DNA of 64,000 bases from Massilia sp. Se16.2.3 (GTDB lineage: Bacteria > Pseudomonadota > Gammaproteobacteria > Burkholderiales > Burkholderiaceae_D): the NCBI RefSeq assembly GCF_014171595.1, contig NZ_CP050451.1, positions 4,960,001-5,024,000 on the forward strand. Reading direction: 5' to 3'. A program made the position numbers and the translations under genes. Under the pieces are notes generated by a model. It was given only the letters and a program-made list of their open reading frames with translations. It had not been told where the DNA came from and ran no database searches. This document shows positions 14,470 to 25,496 of this stretch, piece by piece; the stretch's first letter is position 1, and the number at the start of each line of letters is the position of its first letter.

Positions 14470-17322
14470 CTACTTCCCGATCAGCACCGGCTCATCAAAT
14501 CCCAGCTCCTTCATCCGCGGTAGCTGCGTCTTGCCGTCACCCACCACCAGCCACACCATCTTCGACGGATCGAGATACTTCTGCGACAAGGCCTGCACTT
14601 GCGGCAGCGTCATCGCCTTGACGATCTGCTCGCGCTCCTTCACGTAGTCCGGGCGCCAGCCGTATTTGCTGATGTTGTCCAGCATGGCCAGCTTGGCGCC
14701 GGCGGTCTCGAAAGCGCGTGCATTGCTCTTGACGAGGAAGTTCCTGGTCGTTTCCAGGTCCGCGGCCGTGTAGGTGGACGGATAATCCTGCAGGATCTGC
14801 TTGACCAGCTGGGTCGATTCGAGCGTGACGTTGCTGCGCACGCCGCTGGCGATCAGGAAGGGGCCGGCGCTCTTGCTGCCGCTGAAACTGGAATTGATGC
14901 CGTAGGTGTAGCCCTTGCCTTCGCGCAGTTGCTGGGTCAGGCGCGAGGCGAAGCCGCCGCCGCCGAGGATGTAGTTGGTGACAAGCGCCGGGTAGTAGTC
15001 CGGATCGGTCACGGCCAGCGCGCGGTAGCCAACCTGCAGCACCGACTGCTTGGCGTCGGGCACGTCGACAAAATACACCTTGGCGGGCGCCTGGCCGGCG
15101 GCCGCCGTCGGGGCCGGCAGCGTGACGATGGAAAAACTGCTGTTCCGGCTGATCGGCATCGGTTTCGTGCTGCTCAGCCTGACGGTACTGTCGGGCGTGG
15201 TGTTCTCCGAGCAGCTGTTCGGACGCGCGCTCGAGGGCGACAGGTTCGCCCGGTAGTACGCTTTCAGGTCGTCGATGGTGATCGCATTCACACTCTCGAA
15301 GCTGCCGAGGATGTTGTGCGAACGGGGATCGTCCTTTGCATAAATCAACCTGGCGAAGTTGTTGGCGGCCAGCGCATTCGGCTCGGCTTCCTGCTGGCGG
15401 ATCTGGGTCAGCACGCTTTGCTTGATGCGCGCAAATTCCTTCTCGTCCCAGCGCGGCGCAAGCAGGATTTCCTGGACCAGGGCCAGGGTCGCATCGTAGT
15501 TGCGTGCCAGCGTCGTGACGCCGATGCGGATGTCTTCGGTACGCGCCGAGACATTGATCGTGGCGCCCAGTTGCTGGATCGCTTCCTCGAGTTCCTGCGG
15601 GGTCTTGCTGGCGGTGCCCTGGGTCATCATTCGGGCCACCAGGTTGGCGACGCCCACCTTGTCCAGCTTGTCGAGCAACAGGCCGCCGTCGAGGGCGATC
15701 TCGAACTGCACCAGCGGTACTTCCTTGTTCTCGATGCCGACCACGCGCATGCCGTTGCCCAGCGACGCGTTCCATACCTGCGGCACCTTCAAAGCGGGCG
15801 TCGGTCCGTAGGGCGGCTCCTTGCTGCGGTCAAAGGCTGATGGGGTCTTCGCGTAGTCGGCGTTGACGCTCGGGTCGACCGCGTTCTCGGCGCCCTGCAC
15901 CACTTTCTCTTCCACCACTTCGGCCTTGCTCGAACCACTCAGGGCGAGGGCCAGCTTGCCCTTCGGGACAAAACTGGTCGCGACAAATGGCTTGCCCTTG
16001 ATATAGGTTTCGTACACGCGCCGCACATCGGCCGGCGTGACGGCCAGGGTCTTCCTGACGCCTTCGGTCGCATAGCCCGGGTTGCCGCTCAGGTAATTGT
16101 ATTCGGCCAGCAGCGCCGATTTGCCCAGCACGCTCGACACCGAGTTATAGAAACGCGTCTCGATGCCGGCCTTGATCCGGTTCAGGTCTTTCTCGGGAAT
16201 GCCTTCCTTCTCGAACTTCGCAAAGGCCGCGTCGACCGCACCGGCCACTTCGTCGAGCGGCTTGCCCTCGTAGGCGCGCACGCGCAGCATGAACTGGCCC
16301 GCCAGTTCCGAAGTCTGGTTGCCGATCTGGACGGCCGGCGCCAGCTTGCTGTCTTCCACGACCACTTTGTAGAACGGCGCGCGCTTCGTTTGCGACAGGT
16401 ATTCGGCCAGCACTTCCAGCGCATACGAATCCGGATGCAGGTCCTCGACGGTCGGCCAGGCCATCGTCAGCTCGGGCAGCCTGGCGAAATTGTCTTCATG
16501 CGCCAGCTTGACGGTCTGTTTCACCACGCCCGGGCGCTTGGCCATCGCGCGGATCGGTTCGCCGCGCTTGATCTCGGAAAAATACTTTTCGACCCATTTG
16601 CGCGCCTGCACCGGATCGAAGTCGCCTGCCAGCACGAGGGTGACATTGTTCGGCACGTACCACAGGCGGAAGAATTCCTTGACGTCGTCGACGGTGGCAT
16701 TCTGCAGGTCCTCGAGCGAGCCGATGACTTGCCAGTTGTACGGGTGGTCGGCCGGGTACAGCGCCTTGTTGATGACGTAGGAAGTGTGGCCATACGGGGC
16801 GTTGTCCACGCCCTGGCGCTTCTCGTTCTTGACGACCTGCTTTTCCTTGGCCAGCACCGGATCGGTCACGGTGTTGATGAACCAGCCGAGCTTGTCGGCC
16901 TCGGCCCAGATCATTTTTTCCAGGGCATCCTTGGGCACCGTCTGCAGGTAGTTGGTACGGTCCTGCGAGGTCGAACCATTCGCACCCGAGCCGCCGATGC
17001 GGGCGGTCATCTTGTCGAGGCCGCCTTTGCCGAGGTTTTCCGATTCCAGGAACAGCAGGTGTTCGAACAGGTGGGCAAAGCCGGTGCGACCAGCCTTTTC
17101 CCGGCTCGATCCCACGTGGGCCGTCAGGTTGACGGCGACGACCGGATCGGAACGGTCGATGTGGAAAATCACCTCCATGCCGTTGGCCAGCGTGAACTTC
17201 TGGTACTCCACCTTGAGGGCGGCCCGGGTGGCGGCCTTGTTGGGCGTCGCGGCCTGGATGGGGGCAGCGATGGTCGATGCCAGGCATGCAGCCAGCACTA
17301 CGGTTGGGGGAAACATCTTCAT
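14470..17322 (-). CDS. M16 family zinc metallopeptidase, two-domain, with a foreign segment
   Basis: A 950-residue exported protein from MKMFPPTVVLAACLAS (signal peptide ending IQAAT). The inverted zinc motif HLFEH is at about residues 84-88, followed by the downstream Glu in MIWAEADKLGW. A second, inactive-type M16 half begins near residue 510 (NGMRVVGIENKEVPLVQFEI). This is the pitrilysin/insulinase-like arrangement of secreted proteobacterial M16 proteins. Residues about 697-734, just after AYYRANLSPS, do not look like M16: they are rich in Ser, Pro, Asn and Arg and are the antisense reading of a fragment of another gene on the plus strand (see 15121-15232). The normal beta-strand and helix of this place are missing, so the C-terminal half may be misfolded, or the sequence may be chimeric. 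Confidence 0.88.
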   Translation of the reverse strand: MKMFPPTVVLAACLASTIAAPIQAATPNKAATRAALKVEYQKFTLANGMEVIFHIDRSDPVVAVNLTAHVGSSREKAGRTGFAHLFEHLLFLESENLGKGGLDKMTARIGGSGANGSTSQDRTNYLQTVPKDALEKMIWAEADKLGWFINTVTDPVLAKEKQVVKNEKRQGVDNAPYGHTSYVINKALYPADHPYNWQVIGSLEDLQNATVDDVKEFFRLWYVPNNVTLVLAGDFDPVQARKWVEKYFSEIKRGEPIRAMAKRPGVVKQTVKLAHEDNFARLPELTMAWPTVEDLHPDSYALEVLAEYLSQTKRAPFYKVVVEDSKLAPAVQIGNQTSELAGQFMLRVRAYEGKPLDEVAGAVDAAFAKFEKEGIPEKDLNRIKAGIETRFYNSVSSVLGKSALLAEYNYLSGNPGYATEGVRKTLAVTPADVRRVYETYIKGKPFVATSFVPKGKLALALSGSSKAEVVEEKVVQGAENAVDPSVNADYAKTPSAFDRSKEPPYGPTPALKVPQVWNASLGNGMRVVGIENKEVPLVQFEIALDGGLLLDKLDKVGVANLVARMMTQGTASKTPQELEEAIQQLGATINVSARTEDIRIGVTTLARNYDATLALVQEILLAPRWDEKEFARIKQSVLTQIRQQEAEPNALAANNFARLIYAKDDPRSHNILGSFESVNAITIDDLKAYYRANLSPSSARPNSCSENTTPDSTVRLSSTKPMPISRNSSFSIVTLPAPTAAAGQAPAKVYFVDVPDAKQSVLQVGYRALAVTDPDYYPALVTNYILGGGGFASRLTQQLREGKGYTYGINSSFSGSKSAGPFLIASGVRSNVTLESTQLVKQILQDYPSTYTAADLETTRNFLVKSNARAFETAGAKLAMLDNISKYGWRPDYVKEREQIVKAMTLPQVQALSQKYLDPSKMVWLVVGDGKTQLPRMKELGFDEPVLIGK
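15121..15232 (+). pseudogene. Fragment of a YpjD/CcsA-type cytochrome c assembly protein gene inside the M16 gene
   Basis: Read on the plus strand, 15128 onward encodes MEKLLFRLIGIGFVLLSLTV then LSGVVFSEQLFGRAL. That is a hydrophobic segment which I recognise as the conserved middle of the inner-membrane CcsA/HemX-like protein YpjD of Burkholderiales (typically ...LLFRLIxxGFVLLTLTxxSG...). The resemblance stops abruptly at both ends, where normal antisense-of-M16 sequence resumes. About 112 bases therefore seem to come from another locus. There is no start or stop context for a real gene. Identification is from memory of the family and needs a search. Confidence 0.6.
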
Positions 17323-17571
17323 GCGAACAAGATCCTCAGGATGGAAGGGACGGTAGGGCACCGGAGCGTTCTGGATGGTATTGCAATTTCATGATTGCTA
17401 CAACGACAAAGGGCGCTCCGGCGCCGTACGCGGCAGTGTTGCCAGCCGCTTGCATACGGCAGGCTCGACAGGGTGCAATGCATATCTTGCCCTACGAACC
17501 TTGCTGTAGCACAAATTCCTCTCTACACAAGCAGCGGAAAGTAGTCCTGGTATTCACCCACGGAGGAACCC

Positions 17572-18617
17572 ATGCGCCCTATCCCACCCCTGTTAGCCGC
17601 CCTGCTGGCCACGTCCCTGTCCGCCCAGGCCTCGGGCGACATCGCCGTGACCATCACGCCCGAGCGTGCCACCCTTGGCAAGCGCGACGACGTGATGGTG
17701 ACGGTCACCATGCACAACACCGGCAGCGCGCCCGAGCGCCTGCCCGCCTGGCGCACGCCGTTTGCGCGCATCGACAGTCCGCTGTTCGAGATGACGCGCG
17801 ATGGCCTGCCGGTGCGCTACCTCGGCCGCCAGGTCAAGCGCGCCGCACCGGCCGAGGCCGATTTCCTGACCCTGATGCCGGCGAGCGCCGCAGCGCGCGC
17901 GTCGAGCTGTCGGCCCTGTACGACATGGCGGCGACGGGCGCATATGCGGTGCGCTACCGCGGCGCCGCCAGCAGCGGGAGCGAATCCGCCACCTCGACGG
18001 CCACGACCAGGACCGGCGCCATGCGTTCGAATACCGCGGCGATCTGGATCGAAGGCCGCCTGCCGCGCGGCGTCGCTTCCATGGCGGTCGATGCGCCCAC
18101 GGGCAAGGGTTTGAGTTATGCGCAGTGCTCGAACGCCCAGCAGGAAACCATTGCCCAGGCCATGAGCGCCGGCACCGCGATGACAAACGACGCCCTGGCG
18201 TATTTCGGCAAGGCCGAGGTGCCGGGCAAGCGCTATGTCAACTGGTTCGGCGCGCTCGACGGCACGCGCCAGGCGCTGGTCGCCAAACACTTCACGGCCA
18301 TCAAGGATGCGTTCGACACCAAGCCGGTGAAGGTCGACTGCGGTTGTGACGAGGATTATTTCGCCTACGTCTACCCGGCACGGCCCTACACGATCTATGT
18401 CTGCAAGGCCTTCTGGAGCGCGGCGCTGACCGGCACCGATTCGAAAGGCGGCACGCTGCTGCACGAGATGAGCCATTTCGATGCCGTCGCCGGCACCGAT
18501 GACCATGTCTATGGCCAGTCGGGCGCGGCCGAGATGGCACGGACGGCACCGGAACGCGCCGTCAACAATGCCGACTCGCACGAGTACTTTGGCGAGAACA
18601 ATCCGCCCTTGAATTAG
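17572..18617 (+). CDS. M35-like (aspzincin) secreted metalloprotease, copy 1 (one frame break)
   Basis: The start ATG follows a strong GGAGGA site, and MRPIPPLLAALLATSLSAQA is a signal peptide. An N-terminal beta-sandwich-like region (VTITPERATLGKRDDVMVTV, about residues 24-125) precedes the catalytic part. Catalytic motifs are HEMSH (HExxH) and GTDDHVYG (GTxDxxYG), which together define deuterolysin/peptidyl-Lys-type M35 aspzincins. Frame breaks at the GG of 17880-17881: adding one G there gives MPGERRSARVELSALYD, matching copy 2. The span is 3n+2, as expected for one missing base; the restored protein has about 348 residues. It is a tandem paralog of the gene at 18947. Probably secreted; target unknown. 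Confidence 0.85.
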
Positions 18618-18946
18618 TGCAAGAAATCTTCCAGCCTGAGCTGCCGGCACTATTGGCAGGTTCAGGCTACGGAAGCCAATAAGAGGATACTGTTCATGCT
18701 TTTTGGGTCGTCTAGACAAGGCGCTAGCACAAGTTTTGACATAAATACAGAGCGATTCGACAATAGTTCATTCTTGTTACTTTTCCGCCAATCGACCAAA
18801 CAAAATATCTAAATTACATTGCTTCGTTTGAAAGAATTGCGCAGTATAGGCGTGAGTTTTCGTTACATTCCGATGAAATGCGACGGGAGCTTACACAATA
18901 ATGCGGGTGGCGAGCAGCCACGACAATTTTTATACGGAGAAGACAC
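18618..18946. other. Intergenic region between the two M35 genes, with a hairpin
   Basis: AGCCTGAGCTGCC at 18633-18645 pairs imperfectly with GGCAGGTTCAGGCT at 18655-18668, a hairpin without a T tract just after copy 1. The rest (about 18720-18930) is AT-rich and presumably holds the promoter of copy 2, so the two paralogs can be expressed separately. No gene is seen. Confidence 0.5.
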
Positions 18947-20053
18947 ATGAGCTGGAACAGCATCTTGAAGTCGGCAATCGGTATCGCAGCACTCGGCATG
19001 GCATGCGGCGCCCAGGCAGGTTCGAACGGCGTGAAAGTGACCGTCACCCCTGAGAAAAACGCGCTTGGCGCCAGCGACGACGTGGTCGTCAACGTCACCC
19101 TGACCAACACTTCCTCGACCCCGCAATACGTGCTGAAGGCGCGCACGCCTTTCGAAGGCCTGAGCGCGCCGCTGTTCGACGTCACGCGCGATGGCGCCGC
19201 CGTCCCGTACACCGGCGCCCTCGTCAAGCGCGCCAAGCCGACCGCGGCCGACTACTACCTGCTGAAACCAGGCGCGTCGCATACCGTGAAAGTGGAACTG
19301 TCTGCCCTGTACGACATGAGCGTCAGCGGCGACTACTCGATCCGCTATCGCACCGCTTCGCCGGATCTGTTCCTGACGAATAACGGCCGCCTCGGCGGTA
19401 CCGTGCAAGCCGCCGGCTCGAACGCCGGCATCGGCGAGCTGCAGTCGGAAGCGGCTACCCTGTACGTCCAGGGCCGCCTGCCGCGCGGTTCGGAATCGCC
19501 CATCATGGAAGCGCTGAAACGCGATGGCGGCACGGTTTCCCCGGCTGGCGTGAGCTACGCTTCGTGCTCGTCGTCGCAGCAGAGCACGATCGCTTCGGCG
19601 ATCACGGCTGCGAAGAACTACGCCAACGGCTCGGTCAGCTACATGACCCGCACCACGATGGGTCCGCGCTACACCAAGTGGTTCGGCACTGCCACGTCCT
19701 CGCGCGTGTCGACCGTGCGCTCGCATTACAACAACATCAAGAGCGCCTTCGATACCAAGAACGTGGTGGTCGATTGCAGCTGCCGCGACAGCTCGTACGC
19801 CTACGTGTACCCGACCCAGCCGTACCGCATCTACGTCTGCAACGCGTTCTGGTCGGCACCGATGACGGGCACCGACTCGAAGGGCGGCACCCTGGTGCAT
19901 GAGATGAGCCACTTCAACGTTGTCGCCGGTACCGACGACCACGCCTATGGCCAGAGCGCGGCCGCCAGCCTGGCGATCAGCAATCCGACCCAGGCTGTCG
20001 ACAACGCCGACTCGCACGAGTACTTCTCGGAAAACAACCCGGCGCTGAACTAA
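18947..20053 (+). CDS. M35-like (aspzincin) secreted metalloprotease, copy 2
   Basis: A 368-residue protein with a signal peptide (MSWNSILKSAIGIAALGMAC, cleavage near AQAG) and a GGAGA ribosome site. Residues about 28-135 form a beta-rich N-terminal domain (VKVTVTPEKNALGASDDVVV; LVKRAKPTAADYYLL). The catalytic domain follows, with four Cys in its first half (SYASCSSSQQ; VVVDCSCRDS; RIYVCNAFW). Zinc ligands: HEMSH at 318-322 and GTDDHAYG at 328-335, the HExxH + GTxDxxYG signature of family M35. The C-terminus NADSHEYFSENNPALN is shared with copy 1 and may act in substrate binding. The family cleaves proteins, often on the amino side of Lys (peptidyl-Lys endopeptidase type); specificity here is not provable. 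A strong terminator follows. Confidence 0.92.
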   Translation: MSWNSILKSAIGIAALGMACGAQAGSNGVKVTVTPEKNALGASDDVVVNVTLTNTSSTPQYVLKARTPFEGLSAPLFDVTRDGAAVPYTGALVKRAKPTAADYYLLKPGASHTVKVELSALYDMSVSGDYSIRYRTASPDLFLTNNGRLGGTVQAAGSNAGIGELQSEAATLYVQGRLPRGSESPIMEALKRDGGTVSPAGVSYASCSSSQQSTIASAITAAKNYANGSVSYMTRTTMGPRYTKWFGTATSSRVSTVRSHYNNIKSAFDTKNVVVDCSCRDSSYAYVYPTQPYRIYVCNAFWSAPMTGTDSKGGTLVHEMSHFNVVAGTDDHAYGQSAAASLAISNPTQAVDNADSHEYFSENNPALN

Positions 20054-20096
20054 GCACTGGTTTCGGCATCATCGGGCTTGACCCGGCTGAAACGAC

Positions 20097-20150
20097 AAGG
20101 TCCCGGCGAACCGGCAAGTCTGACTTGCGGTTCGGCGGGACCTTTTTTTC
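20097..20150 (+). terminator. Rho-independent terminator of the M35 gene
   Basis: A long near-perfect hairpin: AAGGTCCCG...GAACCGGCAAGTC pairs with GACTTGCGGTTC...CGGGACC, and a run of seven T follows (20143-20149). It can also act on the convergent lipoprotein gene, whose stop is at 20173. Confidence 0.93.
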
Positions 20151-20172
20151 GGCCGTGGGACCGAGGCTTCGC

Positions 20173-20664
20173 TTATTGCCCGGTATGGACGAAGGAGACC
20201 GGCTTGGCCGGGAACTCCGTCAGCGCATCCAGGCGCTTCGGATCGACCAGCACGGGGCCGGCATAGCCGATGTTGTAGCTGTGACGCCCGCTCTGGAAGG
20301 CGTAGGTGCGGGTGATGTCGATGGTGTTCTTCAGGACCTTGCCCGGTGCCAGAGGCTCGTAGTCGGCGGCCGTGAGTGCCGCGCGCTTGACCATCTTGCC
20401 GGTATAGTCGATTGGCCGGTTGCCGAAGTCACGCACGTCGAAGCGGCGGCCCGTCAGTTCCTTTTCCAGCGCAATCTCGCGCGGAATCCAGACCGTGGCC
20501 TTGCCCTGGTTGGTGATCGTCAGGTTGACCAGCACCTTGCCGGGCGGGGTAGCGATATCGATACTGTGTTTCACGTCCACGGTCGGTTCTCCAGCCGTAC
20601 TGGCACAGGCGGTAATAAAGCTGGCTGCCGCAACGGCGGCCAGCAGGAAGGGTCTGCGTTGCAT
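20173..20664 (-). CDS. Lipoprotein resembling the N-terminal domain of the adjacent M35 proteases
   Basis: A 163-residue protein with lipoprotein signal MQRRPFLLAAVAAASFITAC (acylated Cys at 20). The mature part aligns with the N-terminal beta domain of both neighbouring proteases: VLVNLTITNQGKATVWIPRE, RRFDVRDFGNRPIDYTGKMV and VKRAALTAADYEPLAPGK correspond to VVNVTLTNTSSTPQYVLKAR, LFDVTRDGAAVPYTGALV and VKRAKPTAADYYLLKPG. It lacks the zinc motifs altogether. It is convergent with the proteases and shares their terminator. A membrane-anchored single-domain relative of a protease's non-catalytic domain could be an inhibitor, chaperone or receptor. That is inference; no characterised homolog is known to me. 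Confidence 0.8.
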   Translation of the reverse strand: MQRRPFLLAAVAAASFITACASTAGEPTVDVKHSIDIATPPGKVLVNLTITNQGKATVWIPREIALEKELTGRRFDVRDFGNRPIDYTGKMVKRAALTAADYEPLAPGKVLKNTIDITRTYAFQSGRHSYNIGYAGPVLVDPKRLDALTEFPAKPVSFVHTGQ

Positions 20665-20898: not shown

Positions 20899-21633
20899 TC
20901 ACCCGCCCTCTTGCGGCGTGGCCGCCAGGATCGTCACCGCCACGCGCCGGTTGCGTGCCCTGCCCGCTTCATCCGTGTTCGGCGCCACCGGTAGGTTGGC
21001 GCCATGGCCGACGGCGGTCAGCCGCGACGGATCGATGCCGCCTTCGATGAACAGGCGCACCACGCTGCTGGCGCGCACGCTCGATAACTCCCAGTTCGAC
21101 GGAAACGCGGAATTGGCGATCGGCCGGTCGTCGGTATGGCCTTCGACCTGGATCGCATGGGTGTCAAGCTGCAGCAGGCCCGCCACCGTGCCGAGGGTGG
21201 CACGCGCATCCTTGCCCAGCACCGCCTGCCCTTCGGCGAAGAGCACGCTGGCATTGATGTCGACCTTGACGCCGCGCGCGGTCTGCGTCACGCGCACCTT
21301 GCCGTCTTTCACCAGCGGCGCAAGCGAGGCATTCAACTGGCGCGCGAGCGTGTTCAGGCGCTCCTGCTCGCGGCGCATGGCCTCCAGCCGCTTGCGTGCG
21401 ATCAGCTGCGTCAGGGGCAGCTGTTCGATGGTGCTGCTGGCCTGCGGCGTCGTCGGCTTGCCGCCGAAGGCATCGCCAAGCGCGTCCGACAGCACCCGGT
21501 ATTTTCCGACGTTGACCACGGAAATCGCGTACATCACGACAAAGAAGGCGAACAGCAGCGTGATGAAGTCGGCGTACGAAATCAGCCAGCGGTCGTGGTT
21601 TTCCGCCTCTTCCTCGACGCGTTTGCGCGCCAT
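20899..21633 (-). CDS. motD: MotD, MotB-type flagellar stator protein
   Basis: A 244-residue stator subunit that anchors the motor to peptidoglycan. RWLISYADFITLLFAFFVVM (about residues 15-34) is the single transmembrane segment, with the essential proton-carrying Asp in YADF. The C-terminal OmpA-like peptidoglycan-binding domain has QVEGHTDDRPI and NWELSSVRASSVVRLFIEGG. The N-terminus MARKRVEEEAENHDRW is characteristic of MotD rather than MotB. Its ATG follows the motC stop by one base, so the two are translationally coupled. Confidence 0.93.
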   Translation of the reverse strand: MARKRVEEEAENHDRWLISYADFITLLFAFFVVMYAISVVNVGKYRVLSDALGDAFGGKPTTPQASSTIEQLPLTQLIARKRLEAMRREQERLNTLARQLNASLAPLVKDGKVRVTQTARGVKVDINASVLFAEGQAVLGKDARATLGTVAGLLQLDTHAIQVEGHTDDRPIANSAFPSNWELSSVRASSVVRLFIEGGIDPSRLTAVGHGANLPVAPNTDEAGRARNRRVAVTILAATPQEGG

Positions 21634-21634
21634 G

Positions 21635-22378
21635 TCAGTGCGTCACCAGGAGGCTGGCCATGCGTTCCTCGACCACGCGCGCATGGTTGCCGCTGGCCAG
21701 GTCGTGGAAGACTTCCAGCAGGATGTCGTACTGGGCGACGCGGTCCGCCACCAGGGCTTTCAATTTGTTGGCCACCGGCAGGAAGAACAGGTTCGCAAGG
21801 CCCACGCCATACACCGTCGAGACGAAAGCGACCGCGATGCCGGAACCCAGGCGCGAGGGGTCGGACAGGTTTTCCATCACGTGGATGAGGCCCAGCACGG
21901 CGCCCAGGATGCCGATGGTCGGCGCGTAGCCGGCAGCGGATTCCCAGATGCGCGCGGCGCGGCGTTCGGCCGCCTCGAAGGCGCTGACCTCGGTCTCGAG
22001 CAGGCCGCGCAGCTTGTCCGGGTGGACGCCGTCGACGACCAGGCGCAGGCCCTTCTGGATGAAGGGCTCCTTGCCGCCCATGTACTGCTCGAGCGCGAGC
22101 AGGCCGTCGCGCCGTGCCGTGTGGCTCCACAGCGCGATCTCGCGCGAGAGCGGCTGGCGCTTGTCCTTCGGCGGGAAGAAGACCCAGCGCAGCATCTGCA
22201 TGCCGCGGCGGAAAGTACGCGCCTCGGACTGCAGGAGCACCGCCCCGAACGTACCGACGACGACGATGGCGAAGGCTGCCGGTTGAATGAGCGAGGCGAA
22301 GCGGCCGCCGTCGAGCGTGTGCCCGACAACAAGGCCGATAATCGCCAGCGCCAGGCCGATCAGGCTGGCGAAGTCCAC
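21635..22378 (-). CDS. motC: MotC, MotA-type flagellar stator protein
   Basis: A 247-residue MotA-family protein with four hydrophobic segments (for example FASLIQPAAFAIVVVGTFGA and GYAPTIGILGAVLGLIHVME). It pairs with MotD to form the proton channel of the motor. Translation starts at a GTG whose complement is 22376-22378, overlapping the end of fliA by 19 bases. Such overlap suggests coupled translation. Other MotAB-type stators are not in the window. Confidence 0.93.
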   Translation of the reverse strand: MDFASLIGLALAIIGLVVGHTLDGGRFASLIQPAAFAIVVVGTFGAVLLQSEARTFRRGMQMLRWVFFPPKDKRQPLSREIALWSHTARRDGLLALEQYMGGKEPFIQKGLRLVVDGVHPDKLRGLLETEVSAFEAAERRAARIWESAAGYAPTIGILGAVLGLIHVMENLSDPSRLGSGIAVAFVSTVYGVGLANLFFLPVANKLKALVADRVAQYDILLEVFHDLASGNHARVVEERMASLLVTH

Positions 22379-23088
22379 AGCTTTTCCTTGAGCGAGGCAC
22401 GCAGGCGCGCCACGGCTTGCGTGTGGAGCTGCGACACGCGCGATTCCGACACGCCAAGGACGGCGCCGATTTCCTTCAGGTTCAGCTCTTCCTCGTAGTA
22501 CAGGCCCATGAGGATTTTCTCGCGCGGCGGCAAGCCGTCGATGGCGCCGATCACGGCCTGGCGGAAGTCGGTGTCGAGCAGCGCGCGCAGCGGGTCGTCG
22601 TCGTCGACCGCATACCGGTCGAGGAAGGAATCGTTGCCATCCTCGTCGTGGAAGTCCTCGTAATAGACCAGCTGGTGGCCGCCGCCTTCGAACAGCATTT
22701 CCTGGTAATCGGCCAGGGACACGTCGAGCGATTTGGCGACTTCGGTCTCGGAGGGCGCGCGGCCCAGCTTCTGCTGCAGTGCGGTCATGGCGGATTCCAC
22801 TTTCTTCATGGTCTGACGGGTACTGCGCGGCATCCAGTCGTTGCTGCGCAACTCGTCGACCATGGCGCCGCGGATGCGCAGCACTGCATAGGTTTCGAAT
22901 TGGGCGCCGTGGTTGTCTTCGTAGCGGTTGATGGCGTCGAGCAGGCCCATCATGCCGGCCTGGATCAGGTCGTCCACCTCCACCGATGGCGGCAATTTCG
23001 CCTTCATCTGGTGCGCGAGGCGCTTGACCAGCGGGGCGTGCTCGGTGAGCAGGTGGTTCTTGTCCGCTTTCCCTTTGACGGTATACAT
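22360..23088 (-). CDS. fliA: FliA, sigma-28 factor of RNA polymerase
   Basis: This 242-residue sigma factor transcribes late flagellar genes; matching promoters are seen before flgM and flgK. Region 2 contains HAPLVKRLAHQMKAKLPPSV, DDLIQAGMMGLLDAINRYE and FETYAVLRIRGAMVDELRSN. Region 4 contains LPPREKILMGLYYEEELNLK and EIGAVLGVSESRVSQLHTQA. It lies downstream of flhG and overlaps motC. Its antagonist FlgM is encoded at 10774. Confidence 0.97.
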   Translation of the reverse strand: MYTVKGKADKNHLLTEHAPLVKRLAHQMKAKLPPSVEVDDLIQAGMMGLLDAINRYEDNHGAQFETYAVLRIRGAMVDELRSNDWMPRSTRQTMKKVESAMTALQQKLGRAPSETEVAKSLDVSLADYQEMLFEGGGHQLVYYEDFHDEDGNDSFLDRYAVDDDDPLRALLDTDFRQAVIGAIDGLPPREKILMGLYYEEELNLKEIGAVLGVSESRVSQLHTQAVARLRASLKEKLWTSPA

Positions 23089-23103
23089 GCTTGTGCTTTT
23101 TTC

Positions 23104-23921
23104 TTAAGAACCGAAGTGCGCGCCGCGGGTCTGACGCACACCGCTGAAACGCCCGGCGAGTTGGCGGAAAGCCACCGAGGCACCGGCCAGCGGAAACGCA
23201 TCGACCACGGCACGGCCGAGACGCGCGGCGCGGTGCAGGTATTCGTCTGCCGGGACCGAGCCCATGGAACTCAACGTTACTGCAAGGTAACGACTTGCCG
23301 CTGACGCCATATTATCGTAAACAACACGGGCCTCCGCCTCCGTTGCCCCGGTGACAAGGATGCCGAAACGGCGGCGTCCCAGCTCCTGCGCCAGGCGCTT
23401 GATCAGGCCATAGGCGTTGGTGATCGAGGTGGCGTTGGTGGAGACCTGGATCACGATTTCCGAGTCCGCCAGCGCCGGCAAGGCCAGGCTGCCATCGCGG
23501 TTCAGTTCGCCATCGACGATGACGATGCCGCCCTGGCGCTTGACCAGCACATCGAAGGCCTTGGCCAGGCGGCGCGCCTCGACCGCATCCTGCGGCAGGC
23601 GGCCGTCGCGGGCCAGCAGCGCCAGCGCGAAGCCTTGCGGCGCATGCTGCACCACCTGGTCGAGCGCGCATTCCCGGCGTGCCACCTGCATCAACCGGCA
23701 TGGCGTTCCATCTCCGGGCGATAGGCGACGCTGTGGTTGCGCAGGCAGGCGTCGACGATCAGCACGTCGTTGCCGGATTGAAACAGCGAGGCGCCCAGGT
23801 TCACCAGCATGGCGCTCTTGTCGTCGCCCGGGGTGGCGGACAGGAAGGTCACGACGCGCGGCTGGGCGCCGGCCAGCATCCGGCGCAGGCCCTCGGCCTG
23901 GTCAAAGTCGAAACTAGACAA
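23104..23921 (-). CDS. flhG: FlhG (FleN/YlxH), MinD-like flagellar number regulator (one frame break)
   Basis: FlhG-type ATPases control flagellar number and work with FlhF. The likely start is a TTG complementing 23919-23921, overlapping the flhF stop, with GAGG upstream: (M)SSFDFDQAEGLRRMLAGAQP. The first frame stops at 23691. The second gives MQVARRECALDQVVQHAPQ, then the MinD-like core IVIVDGELNRDGSLALPAL and IVIQVSTNATSITNAYGLIK. One missing base in the CCGG around 23695-23699 would join them; the span is 3n+2. The P-loop region reads FLSATPGDDKSAMLVNLG, a degenerate Walker A lacking the usual KGGxGKT, so ATP binding may be altered. Confidence 0.85.
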
Positions 23922-25335
23922 AACGCACCTCGCGCAGGCTGTCGTCGGCTTTGCCGGCACGGGCCATCATCAGCGGCAGGTCGGCGTCCTCGAACTGGGA
24001 TGCGGCATCGCGGCGGCCGCGGAAGGCGCGGTCGACCAGCATGGCGCGGTCGGCCAGGTGCAGGTCTTCCGGCACGCGCTGGCCGTTCGAGATGTAGTGC
24101 AGGTTCAGCTTCTGGCGGATCATCACGTCGAGCACGTTGCCGATCGAGGCGGCTTCGTCGAGCTTGGTCATGATGCAGCCGTGCAGGCCGCTGCCCTGGT
24201 AGGCGCGCACGACTTCGGCCAGGGTTTCGTTGGTGGCCGTCGCGTTCAGGCACAGCAGGCGTTTCACGTCCGCGCCGGCGCCGTTCAGCATGGCCACCTG
24301 TTCCGTCACCATCTGGTCGCGCTGCGACATGCCGATGGTGTCGATGAGCACGGTGTGCTTGTTCTTCAGTTCTTTCAGGGCGATGCGCAGGTCGGCTTCG
24401 TCCTTCACCGAGTGCACCATCACGCCCAGGATCTTGCCATAGATGCGCAGCTGCTCGTGGCCGCCGATACGGTAGGCATCGGTGGTGATCAGGGCCAGCT
24501 TTTCCGCACCGTGGCGCATGACGCAGCGCGCGGCCAGTTTCGCGGTGGTGGTGGTCTTGCCGACGCCGGTCGGGCCGACCAGGGCGAACACGCCGCCCTT
24601 TTCCAGCAGGCTGTCTTCGTCGGCCATGGTGGTCAGGTTACGCGCCAGCACAGTCTTGATCCAGCGCATGGCTTCGGCCGCGTCCTTGTTGGCAGGCATC
24701 TTGTCGATCAGGTAGCGCGACAGCGAGGCCGAGAAACCGGCGCCCAGCATTTCGCGGAGCACGGCCGCCTTGTGCGGTTCGCGCTGCTGGGTACCGCCCC
24801 AGGACAGTTCGGCCAGCTGGGTTTCCATCATGCCGCGCATGGCGCGCAGTTCGCTCATCATGCCGCTCATCTCTTGCGCAGCCGATTCCTGGGCCTGGGC
24901 AATCGCGGCCTGCATCATCTGCGTCATCGCGCTCATATCAAAAGCGGGTGCAGCGGCCGGGGCTGGCGCAGGAGCGGCGGCGCGGCGCGGCGCGGCGAAG
25001 GCGGCTTCGAATTCCGGCTCCATCGCCGGTGCGCGGCGGGTGGCGTAGACGTGTTCGGGGGCCGGCGCTGCGGGCGCGGCGCTGCGGCGGTTCACAAAAG
25101 CCGGCTCGGCGTCGTCGAAGGGATTCAGGTGGTCCAGGCGCGGTGCCGGCTGGGCCATCGGCGAACCGGCGGCTGGCGCGGCCAGCGAGGCGACGTCGTC
25201 GTTGTCGAGTGCGAGGATTTCGACGACGCCATCGACCGGACGGTTCGAGAGGATGACGGCATCGGGCCCGAGCGCATCGCGCACCTTGCGCAAGGCTTCA
25301 CGGGAGGTTGCCGCTGTAAATTTCTTCACATTCAT
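23914..25335 (-). CDS. flhF: FlhF, SRP-type GTPase for flagellar placement
   Basis: A 473-residue SRP-family GTPase that places the flagellum at the pole. It starts MNVKKFTAATSREALRKVRD at the ATG complementing 25333-25335, with GGAGA upstream; a ten-codon upstream extension is rejected. An Ala/Pro-rich linker (about residues 60-160) precedes the NG domain: P-loop GPTGVGKTTTTAKLAA, TTDAYRIGGHEQLRIYG, VLIDTIGMSQRD and TKLDEAASIGNVLDV. It lies upstream of flhG and downstream of flhA, but a repeat array separates it from flhA. Confidence 0.96.
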   Translation of the reverse strand: MNVKKFTAATSREALRKVRDALGPDAVILSNRPVDGVVEILALDNDDVASLAAPAAGSPMAQPAPRLDHLNPFDDAEPAFVNRRSAAPAAPAPEHVYATRRAPAMEPEFEAAFAAPRRAAAPAPAPAAAPAFDMSAMTQMMQAAIAQAQESAAQEMSGMMSELRAMRGMMETQLAELSWGGTQQREPHKAAVLREMLGAGFSASLSRYLIDKMPANKDAAEAMRWIKTVLARNLTTMADEDSLLEKGGVFALVGPTGVGKTTTTAKLAARCVMRHGAEKLALITTDAYRIGGHEQLRIYGKILGVMVHSVKDEADLRIALKELKNKHTVLIDTIGMSQRDQMVTEQVAMLNGAGADVKRLLCLNATATNETLAEVVRAYQGSGLHGCIMTKLDEAASIGNVLDVMIRQKLNLHYISNGQRVPEDLHLADRAMLVDRAFRGRRDAASQFEDADLPLMMARAGKADDSLREVRFV

Positions 25336-25496
25336 CTTATTCTCCGAACTGCTTGATCTATTCATGCCGGGACGGAAGTCTCCGGTCTATGGCTAGATTA
25401 TTGACGATGCTGTGAAGCAACCATCAGCGGAAAAGGATGGGGAAAGTGGGTTAATTCGAATTTGATGGTGGAGTGGTATGGCTTGCGGTCGCGTTA

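Follow-up and report, generated by a model that had tools for sequence, protein, structure and literature searches.

What is the function of a small gene that encodes the N-terminal domain of a secreted protease and lies directly beside the genes of such proteases? This question is raised by a stretch of 64,000 nucleotides from Massilia sp. Se16.2.3 (contig NZ_CP050451.1, positions 4,960,001 to 5,024,000; hereafter the window), in which two M35 (aspzincin) protease genes on the + strand, M35 #1 and M35 #2, are followed by a small gene on the - strand that lies tail to tail with M35 #2. A sequence-only reading of the window had taken the product of the small gene, here called the stand-alone protein, for a lipoprotein version of the N-terminal domain of both proteases, which could serve as a self-protection inhibitor, a folding helper or a docking receptor. 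The inhibitor is the best supported of these roles in our analysis: with moderate confidence, we regard the gene at 20173-20664 as encoding a stand-alone, exported homologue of the M35 pro-domain whose most likely role is to inhibit the neighbouring M35 proteases in trans, in the manner of a propeptide, and so to protect the producer.

The small gene encodes a detached M35 pro-domain

The stand-alone protein consists of a signal with a lipobox (ITA↓C, Cys20) and the pro-domain, and nothing else. BLASTP aligned it with M35 #2 at 32% identity (E 2e-11) and with the N-terminal part of M35 #1 at E 1e-5; judged by these alignments, its similarity to the M35 N-domain is significant and not due to chance. 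No Pfam family was matched at E 1, hence no M35 catalytic domain is recognisable in it, and the proposal that the gene encodes the N-domain alone held. Searches of PHROG at 0.1 and of PADLOC models at 0.01 gave no match, the sole NCBIfam match (E 0.07) was an unrelated enzyme, and the viral structure library returned only weak matches to the query.

In a profile search the stand-alone family matched residues 31-142 of AsaP1, an M35 protease of Aeromonas salmonicida, with E 2e-8. A structure comparison, which the sequence-only reading had suggested as a check, shows that the stand-alone protein has the M35 pro-domain fold, corresponding to the AsaP1 pro-domain over the whole length of the domain. 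To go by the title of its structure paper (FEBS Lett 2016, 590:3280), the AsaP1 pro-domain is said to inhibit its protease in cis. Since AsaP1-type zymogens carry the shared domain as their pro-domain, an inhibitor is the best supported role.

The neighbouring proteases

M35 #2 has the layout of a secreted zymogen, with a signal peptide, a beta-rich pro-domain and a catalytic domain. It is an M35 aspzincin as judged by its PF14521 score of 158.7 bits (curated cut-off 30) and the presence of HEMSH, D331 and Y334, and the Grifola peptidyl-Lys enzyme 1g12 matches it across the catalytic domain. In the Grifola enzyme, D154 and E157 line the lysine-selecting S1' pocket. D355 and E358 of M35 #2 are their counterparts in our alignment and presumably have the same role.

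M35 #1 (17572-18617), on the other hand, is broken. The frame changes at about 17880-17905, inside the pro-domain just past its VKRA loop, through either a genuine lesion or an error of assembly; at the equivalent place, relatives have an upstream M35 gene whose frame is open. Since M35 #1 is spread over two frames, we rejected a description of the locus as containing two intact M35 proteases. The earlier claim that both proteases share the N-terminal domain is thus borne out as homology to each N-terminal part, but not as two open reading frames. More M35 genes split into pieces or separate frames were seen at L048, L108, L151 and L183 (L and G numbers denote our loci and genomes), which may reflect frequent loss of M35 genes in these groups.

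The pair is kept in the genus and family of the window

The pairing is kept in other genomes, a second check suggested by the sequence-only reading. Both genes lie on one contig in 107 genomes, of which 46 belong to the genus of the window, 30 to the rest of its family (f1), 9 to family f145 and 22 to family f147. Among the 62 genomes of the genus, 53 have a stand-alone gene (56 genes, defined as matches above 60 bits, weaker rows being M35 pro-domains) and 51 have an M35 gene; 47 genomes carry both, six the stand-alone gene only, four M35 only and five neither. The stand-alone gene shares a contig with M35 in 49 of 56 cases, and all 49 pairs are convergent, 44 within 2.3 kb and five at about 7.2 kb with intervening genes (L074, L075, L076, L087 and L088). 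By eye, the 7.2 kb stretch contains genes resembling type VI secretion system VgrG genes and Tle-type lipase effector genes in L074 and L088, the two that were read.

Three genomes of the genus (G015, G018 and G052) carry two pairs each. The M35 gene lies at a contig end in G014, as do both M35 and the stand-alone gene in G005, and in G024 the M35 beside the stand-alone gene is reduced to its two ends. The slot of the stand-alone gene is occupied in G060 (L086:5961-7397) by a gene that resembles TnpB by eye, next to what is left of the stand-alone signal peptide, a scrap of 18 residues. The stand-alone gene occurs without M35 in G004, G022, G023, G026 and G031.

For the rest of the family we set aside 27 genomes of the same genus in the sample, leaving 267 genomes, of which 30 have both genes, three the stand-alone gene only, 12 M35 only and 222 neither (Fisher p 1.2e-26, uncorrected for relatedness). 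Stand-alone genes were counted here as the 33 rows above 92 bits plus G290 (51 bits, its own frame of 184 aa); 20 PF14521 rows below 99 bits, representing divergent M35s, were omitted (G165 and G119 have only such rows). Of these stand-alone genes, 30 of 34 share a contig with M35, 29 convergently and one divergently (G260), while G149 and G290 are among the genomes that lack M35. An exported pro-domain-like protein with its Lys-Arg loop kept was seen at L122:5300-5845, with no M35 in the stretch read.

In the family tree a single branch, with a value of 100 in the Shimodaira-Hasegawa-like approximate likelihood ratio test (SH-aLRT), separates the 86 stand-alone rows from the 113 M35 pro-domain rows. 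Such a topology would fit one old separation within this family. A single origin of all stand-alone copies is not claimed, as the f145 copies join those of f1 weakly (86/78) and L150 and L152 are placed elsewhere; several origins are likely for the copies overall.

Detached pro-domains in other families

A class sample of 369 genomes contained 15 besides that of the window with an M35 match, 14 of them over the cut-off of the family. The search of families f145 and f147 was prompted by matches in the class sample, and their rates are therefore not representative of the class; an open frame of less than 260 aa without an M35 match was counted as stand-alone. In f145 (21 genomes) nine of the ten stand-alone genes lie on the M35 strand, seven upstream of M35 and two between two M35 matches, and in f147 (48 genomes) 24 of 27 lie downstream of M35. 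Outside the family of the window 37 frames were read, including G451 of family f125, L151, which is a separated M35 piece, and L195, which is cut by a contig end. Nearly all frames beside an M35 (33 of 34) overlap it or lie within 28 nt of it, six overlapping by exactly 4 nt; larger overlaps depend on the choice of the longest frame.

At L153, L155, L157 and L181 a second pro-domain is fused to the C-terminus of M35, and L152, whose genus is that of L153, has them as two distinct genes that overlap. As a side observation, the fused domain follows a tail that by eye is GlyGly-CTERM-like and an internal lipobox at L153, L155 and L157.

A phylum sample of 398 genomes gave 11 with matches, including six new ones. 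At L237 a copy whose N-terminus is hydrophobic lies 56 nt after an M35. The stretches read at L233, L236 and L238 contain M35 but no separate copy. L240:1039-1842 encodes an exported pro-domain-like protein with the Lys-Arg loop, with no M35 in the 3.3 kb locus read. At L239:1393-2616 (- strand), an M35 of 186 aa, in which neither a signal nor a pro-domain is evident, is followed 3 nt downstream by a separate, exported-looking domain, which has a pro-domain-like fold only and no Lys-Arg loop; this arrangement looks like an effector/immunity pair. Found by another search, it is a counter-example to a control in which the 1-1.5 kb flanks of 26 loci of M35s lacking an AsaP1-type pro-domain contained no stand-alone domain.

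These arrangements bear on the folding helper, in which the separate pro-domain would be a trans-acting steric chaperone for folding or export of the M35 catalytic domain. Pro-domains often assist folding, and membrane-bound foldases assist lipases. Genes that abut or overlap, as they do in f145 and f147, would suit such a helper, and so would L239 with its M35 that lacks a pro-domain. However, 113 M35 frames of f1 have their own pro-domain, which would make a second copy redundant, genus g28 contains M35s without a partner, and genes in tail-to-tail order are not co-transcribed. Because the neighbouring M35s keep their own pro-domain, a folding helper is less needed, and we consider it unlikely.

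Export signals and selection

The stand-alone protein of this genome has a plausible lipobox. In its family, though, a lipobox is found by pattern in only seven of 86 stand-alone copies (one of them in an over-long open reading frame), and at most four of 139 database homologues have one (two by pattern and two more with LPAC). The signal of most copies in the family looks ordinary and cleavable, and the N-terminus is not hydrophobic in 11 of 86. On these counts we rejected the lipoprotein as a defining feature of the family. Outside it, by contrast, 32 of the 37 frames read have a lipobox by pattern, and in L165, L166 and L186 a Cys that the pattern did not pick up follows a hydrophobic stretch. 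Membrane anchoring, as assumed in the sequence-only reading, is thus not general in the family of the window, though it is the norm among the copies studied in other families. The window's protein and its close relatives start with MQRRPFLLAA or MHRRPFLLAA, which we take to resemble a twin-arginine motif; this start is not kept in distant copies.

The frequent lipobox outside the family would agree with a docking receptor or reservoir, a lipoprotein that retains the mature protease at the surface or is cut by it to signal or to release it, as in a Listeria pair of a secreted metzincin and a lipoprotein probably cleaved by it (PMC8235301, in excerpt). Most copies in the family of the window lack an anchor, yet mostly keep the Lys-Arg loop, and such a receptor therefore appears quite improbable.

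With regard to selection, the ratio of non-synonymous to synonymous substitution rates (dN/dS) of the stand-alone genes was 0.03-0.44 in 15 pairs, and their frames are open in more than 100 genomes, G006 being the only genus copy for which an internal stop was reported. A non-functional remnant of a duplicated M35 gene, which the missing catalytic domain might suggest, was rejected on the dN/dS values and has practically no probability left. In ten genus copies both the hydrophobic N-terminus and the loop Lys are missing; five of these copies have an M35 neighbour, and the other five come from M35-less genomes. With dN/dS of 0.03-0.19 in six pairs, these copies too are under purifying selection by this measure. 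By analogy with Spi and the staphostatins, inhibitors thought to act in the cytosol (PMC3462683, in excerpt), they may act there or may have another job.

The Lys-Arg loop and the S1' pocket

All 113 M35 frames of at least 330 aa in f1 keep the Lys-Arg loop, the zinc site and D355/E358 (shorter frames or those with stops, five pieces of broken genes, were omitted). The loop Lys is also kept in 74 of the 86 stand-alone copies of the family, namely in 70 of 75 with an intact M35 in the locus versus four of 11 without one. Across families, a variable pocket is accompanied by a variable loop. Of 95 M35s compared, 93 had a readable pro-domain (39 of these rows come from f1, representing 39 of its 113 M35s): 85 have both Glu358 and Lys, seven neither, one Lys without Glu358 and none Glu358 without Lys (Fisher p 8e-10, a value to be read against a tree that needs just three changes per state, so that the two to three independent pairs put significance out of reach). 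This covariation is the pattern expected if the loop Lys acts as a pseudo-substrate. In trans, stand-alone copies beside M35s with Glu358 keep the Lys in 29 of 29 cases, and the Lys is lost beside Glu-less M35s in L177-L179, which are near relatives by loop and pocket. Taken as a comparison of sequences, the covariation is a hint in favour of a pseudo-substrate, not proof of it.

The loop also bears on whether the Ig-like (immunoglobulin-like) domain now serves a different partner and owes its position next to M35 to an old duplication. That the stand-alone copies of the family stand on one side of a branch with SH-aLRT 100 would be in keeping with this, and so would signal-less copies and those without M35 (G004, G022, G023, G026, G031, G149, G290 and L240), the last three of which retain the Lys-Arg loop without any M35. 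We nevertheless give this explanation very little credence, since the pairing recurs across families with different gene orders and fusions, and the loop Lys is kept far less often where no intact M35 is present.

Weighing the proposed inhibitor

Several observations weigh against an inhibitor and, besides the small number of independent changes noted above, concern the loop, the domain itself and the pairing. The L219 M35 keeps the Lys without Glu358 (Gln at 358, Glu at 355), the stand-alone copies of L170 and L183 retain the Lys beside M35s without Glu358, and five f1 copies have lost it though the adjacent M35s keep Glu358. The constrained copies with neither signal nor Lys imply that some copies do something else. 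A single-sequence search placed AsaP1 (E 4e-4) barely above methane monooxygenase subunits (E 0.0017), matches that were gone once a profile was used, and an AlphaFold2 model of M35 #2 (mean predicted local distance difference test score 72.1) fails to reproduce the domain arrangement of AsaP1 (root-mean-square deviation 17.6).

As for the pairing, genome-level co-occurrence in the genus is weak (Fisher p 0.006), G025, G028 and G060 have M35 without a stand-alone gene, and so do all nine M35-bearing genomes of genus g28, which make up nine of the 12 M35-only genomes in the rest of the family. The convergent order in the family of the window gives no shared transcript. A second pro-domain, separate or fused, was found in just eight of the 15 other M35-bearing genomes of the class sample, and no separate domain lies within 4 kb of nine of 20 M35 matches in f145 and ten of 34 in f147 (two of these ten have the domain fused, and some lie near contig ends). 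Our confidence is slightly lowered because many M35s of other families have no separate copy.

We still favour an inhibitor acting in trans, because the detached copy is exported, is kept beside the enzyme and retains the loop. The Ig-like domain would dock on the catalytic cleft, the Lys-Arg loop would act as a pseudo-substrate by filling the acidic S1' pocket, and binding would block catalysis, protecting the envelope of the producer against prematurely matured protease or protease that comes back from outside. In this strain the inhibitor would be an outer-membrane protein facing the periplasm, as suggested by the lipobox and Ala at +2, and in most relatives of the family a soluble periplasmic protein; the lipoprotein form would keep it at the outer membrane, where the protease exits. 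The convergent genes of the family are presumably regulated separately, and those of f145 and f147 are probably co-expressed.

More tentatively, these proteins may form a widespread, unnamed family of M35 pro-domain inhibitors in the class of the window, detached in several families, sometimes fused again to the protease, and located at the outer membrane, in the periplasm or in the cytosol. The pseudo-substrate loop would change together with the S1' pocket in a lock-and-key form of self-protection, and an immunity-like role as sole inhibitor would be possible, as L239 suggests.

Features of the locus

The features are compiled in Table 1. Beside the pair, at 20899-25365 on the - strand, lie genes that by eye resemble motB, motA, fliA, flhG and flhF, and several further genomes of the genus have similar genes around the slot.

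Table 1. Positions of the M35 genes, the stand-alone gene and their elements in the window
Feature	Position	Strand	Basis and remarks
M35 #1 N-part: signal peptide and pro-domain to just past the Lys-Arg loop	17572..17895	+	ORF (open reading frame) in the 17572 frame; VRYLGRQVKRAAPAEADF read in that frame
M35 #1 C-part, other frame: pro-domain end and catalytic domain	17880..18617	+	Frame of ORF 17277-18617; PF14521 147.2 bits
M35 #2, intact 368-aa aspzincin zymogen	18947..20053	+	PF14521 158.7 bits; AsaP1 2x3a E 2.1e-80 over residues 41-367
M35 #2 pro-domain, about residues 26-140	19022..19366	+	Sequence comparison and model
Lys94-Arg95, loop of the M35 #2 pro-domain	19226..19231	+	Kept in 113/113 family M35 frames of at least 330 aa
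M35 #2 catalytic domain	19556..20050	+	Zinc site HEMSH (19898-19912), D331, Y334; S1' pocket residues D355/E358
Intrinsic-terminator-like hairpin and T-run between the convergent genes	20124..20145	+	Pattern match only
Stand-alone pro-domain gene	20173..20664	-	163 aa, convergent with M35 #2; sequence homology and fold
Lys93-Arg94, loop of the stand-alone domain	20383..20388	-	Sequence reading
Lipobox I17-T18-A19-C20 of the stand-alone protein	20605..20616	-	Pattern only

Comparison with known systems

Pairs of a protease and a propeptide-like inhibitor are already known. Among the matches listed by our M35-aimed literature searches, which covered few subscription journals, there was no such pair for M35 and no protein inhibitor of M35 aspzincins, and no literature on M35 in Massilia was found. 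M35 enzymes are described virulence factors of bacteria and fungi (PMC12924839, in excerpt) and are used as Lys-specific tools in proteomics (PMC11985622, in excerpt). If our reading is true, a natural family of M35 inhibitors whose specificity can be read from a loop would reveal how producing cells withstand these enzymes, and it opens the direct question of whether the loop residue predicts S1' specificity.

The AsaP1 zymogen (PDB 2x3a, 2x3b and 2x3c) has the homologous domain, with the same fold over its full length and the same Lys-Arg loop, but there the pro-domain forms the N-terminus of its own protease, whereas in the window it has a separate gene. The AprA-AprI/Inh systems likewise encode a periplasmic inhibitor with a secreted metalloprotease; the protease is of the serralysin family, however, and the inhibitor fold unrelated.

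The stand-alone domain has the Ig-like fold of IPI/BsuPI of B. subtilis (3isy, PF12690) without a sequence match to it: 3isy was not returned by the profile search of PDB sequences, and PF12690 (BsuPI, I22) is absent from the 24 Pfam families matched at E 1 by any of 59 members. BsuPI inhibits a subtilisin, is reportedly ineffective on metallopeptidases, and was removed from MEROPS as it may be a competing substrate (PMC3901451). The Listeria Mtz/Tim pair also combines a secreted metalloprotease with an adjacent inhibitor-like lipoprotein, but Mtz is a metzincin and the TIMP-like Tim, which is cleaved and released, is apparently no pro-domain homologue (PMC8235301, in excerpt).

Among cysteine proteases, staphopain-staphostatin and the Bacteroides C10 pairs share small inhibitors, predicted to be mainly beta, encoded beside the proteases (PMC3462683, in excerpt). 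These inhibitors are not described as related to propeptides, and the protease clan is different. The I29 propeptide-like inhibitors (CTLA-2alpha, crammer and BCPI) are homologous to protease pro-regions. They are free-standing inhibitory proteins (PMC4089206, in excerpt), as proposed here. Unlike the stand-alone protein, they come from animals and target cysteine proteases.

Spi of Streptococcus pyogenes resembles the propeptide of the C10 protease SpeB, and its small gene adjoins that of the secreted protease, as in the window. Spi is thought to stop prematurely active SpeB (PMC3462683, in excerpt). SpeB is a cysteine protease with a cytoplasmic, transcriptionally coupled inhibitor, whereas the pairs described here consist of a zinc protease and a mostly exported protein and are convergent in the family of the window. 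As in the SpeB-Spi kind of system, a stand-alone homologue of the pro-domain is encoded beside the protease and is kept there across species.

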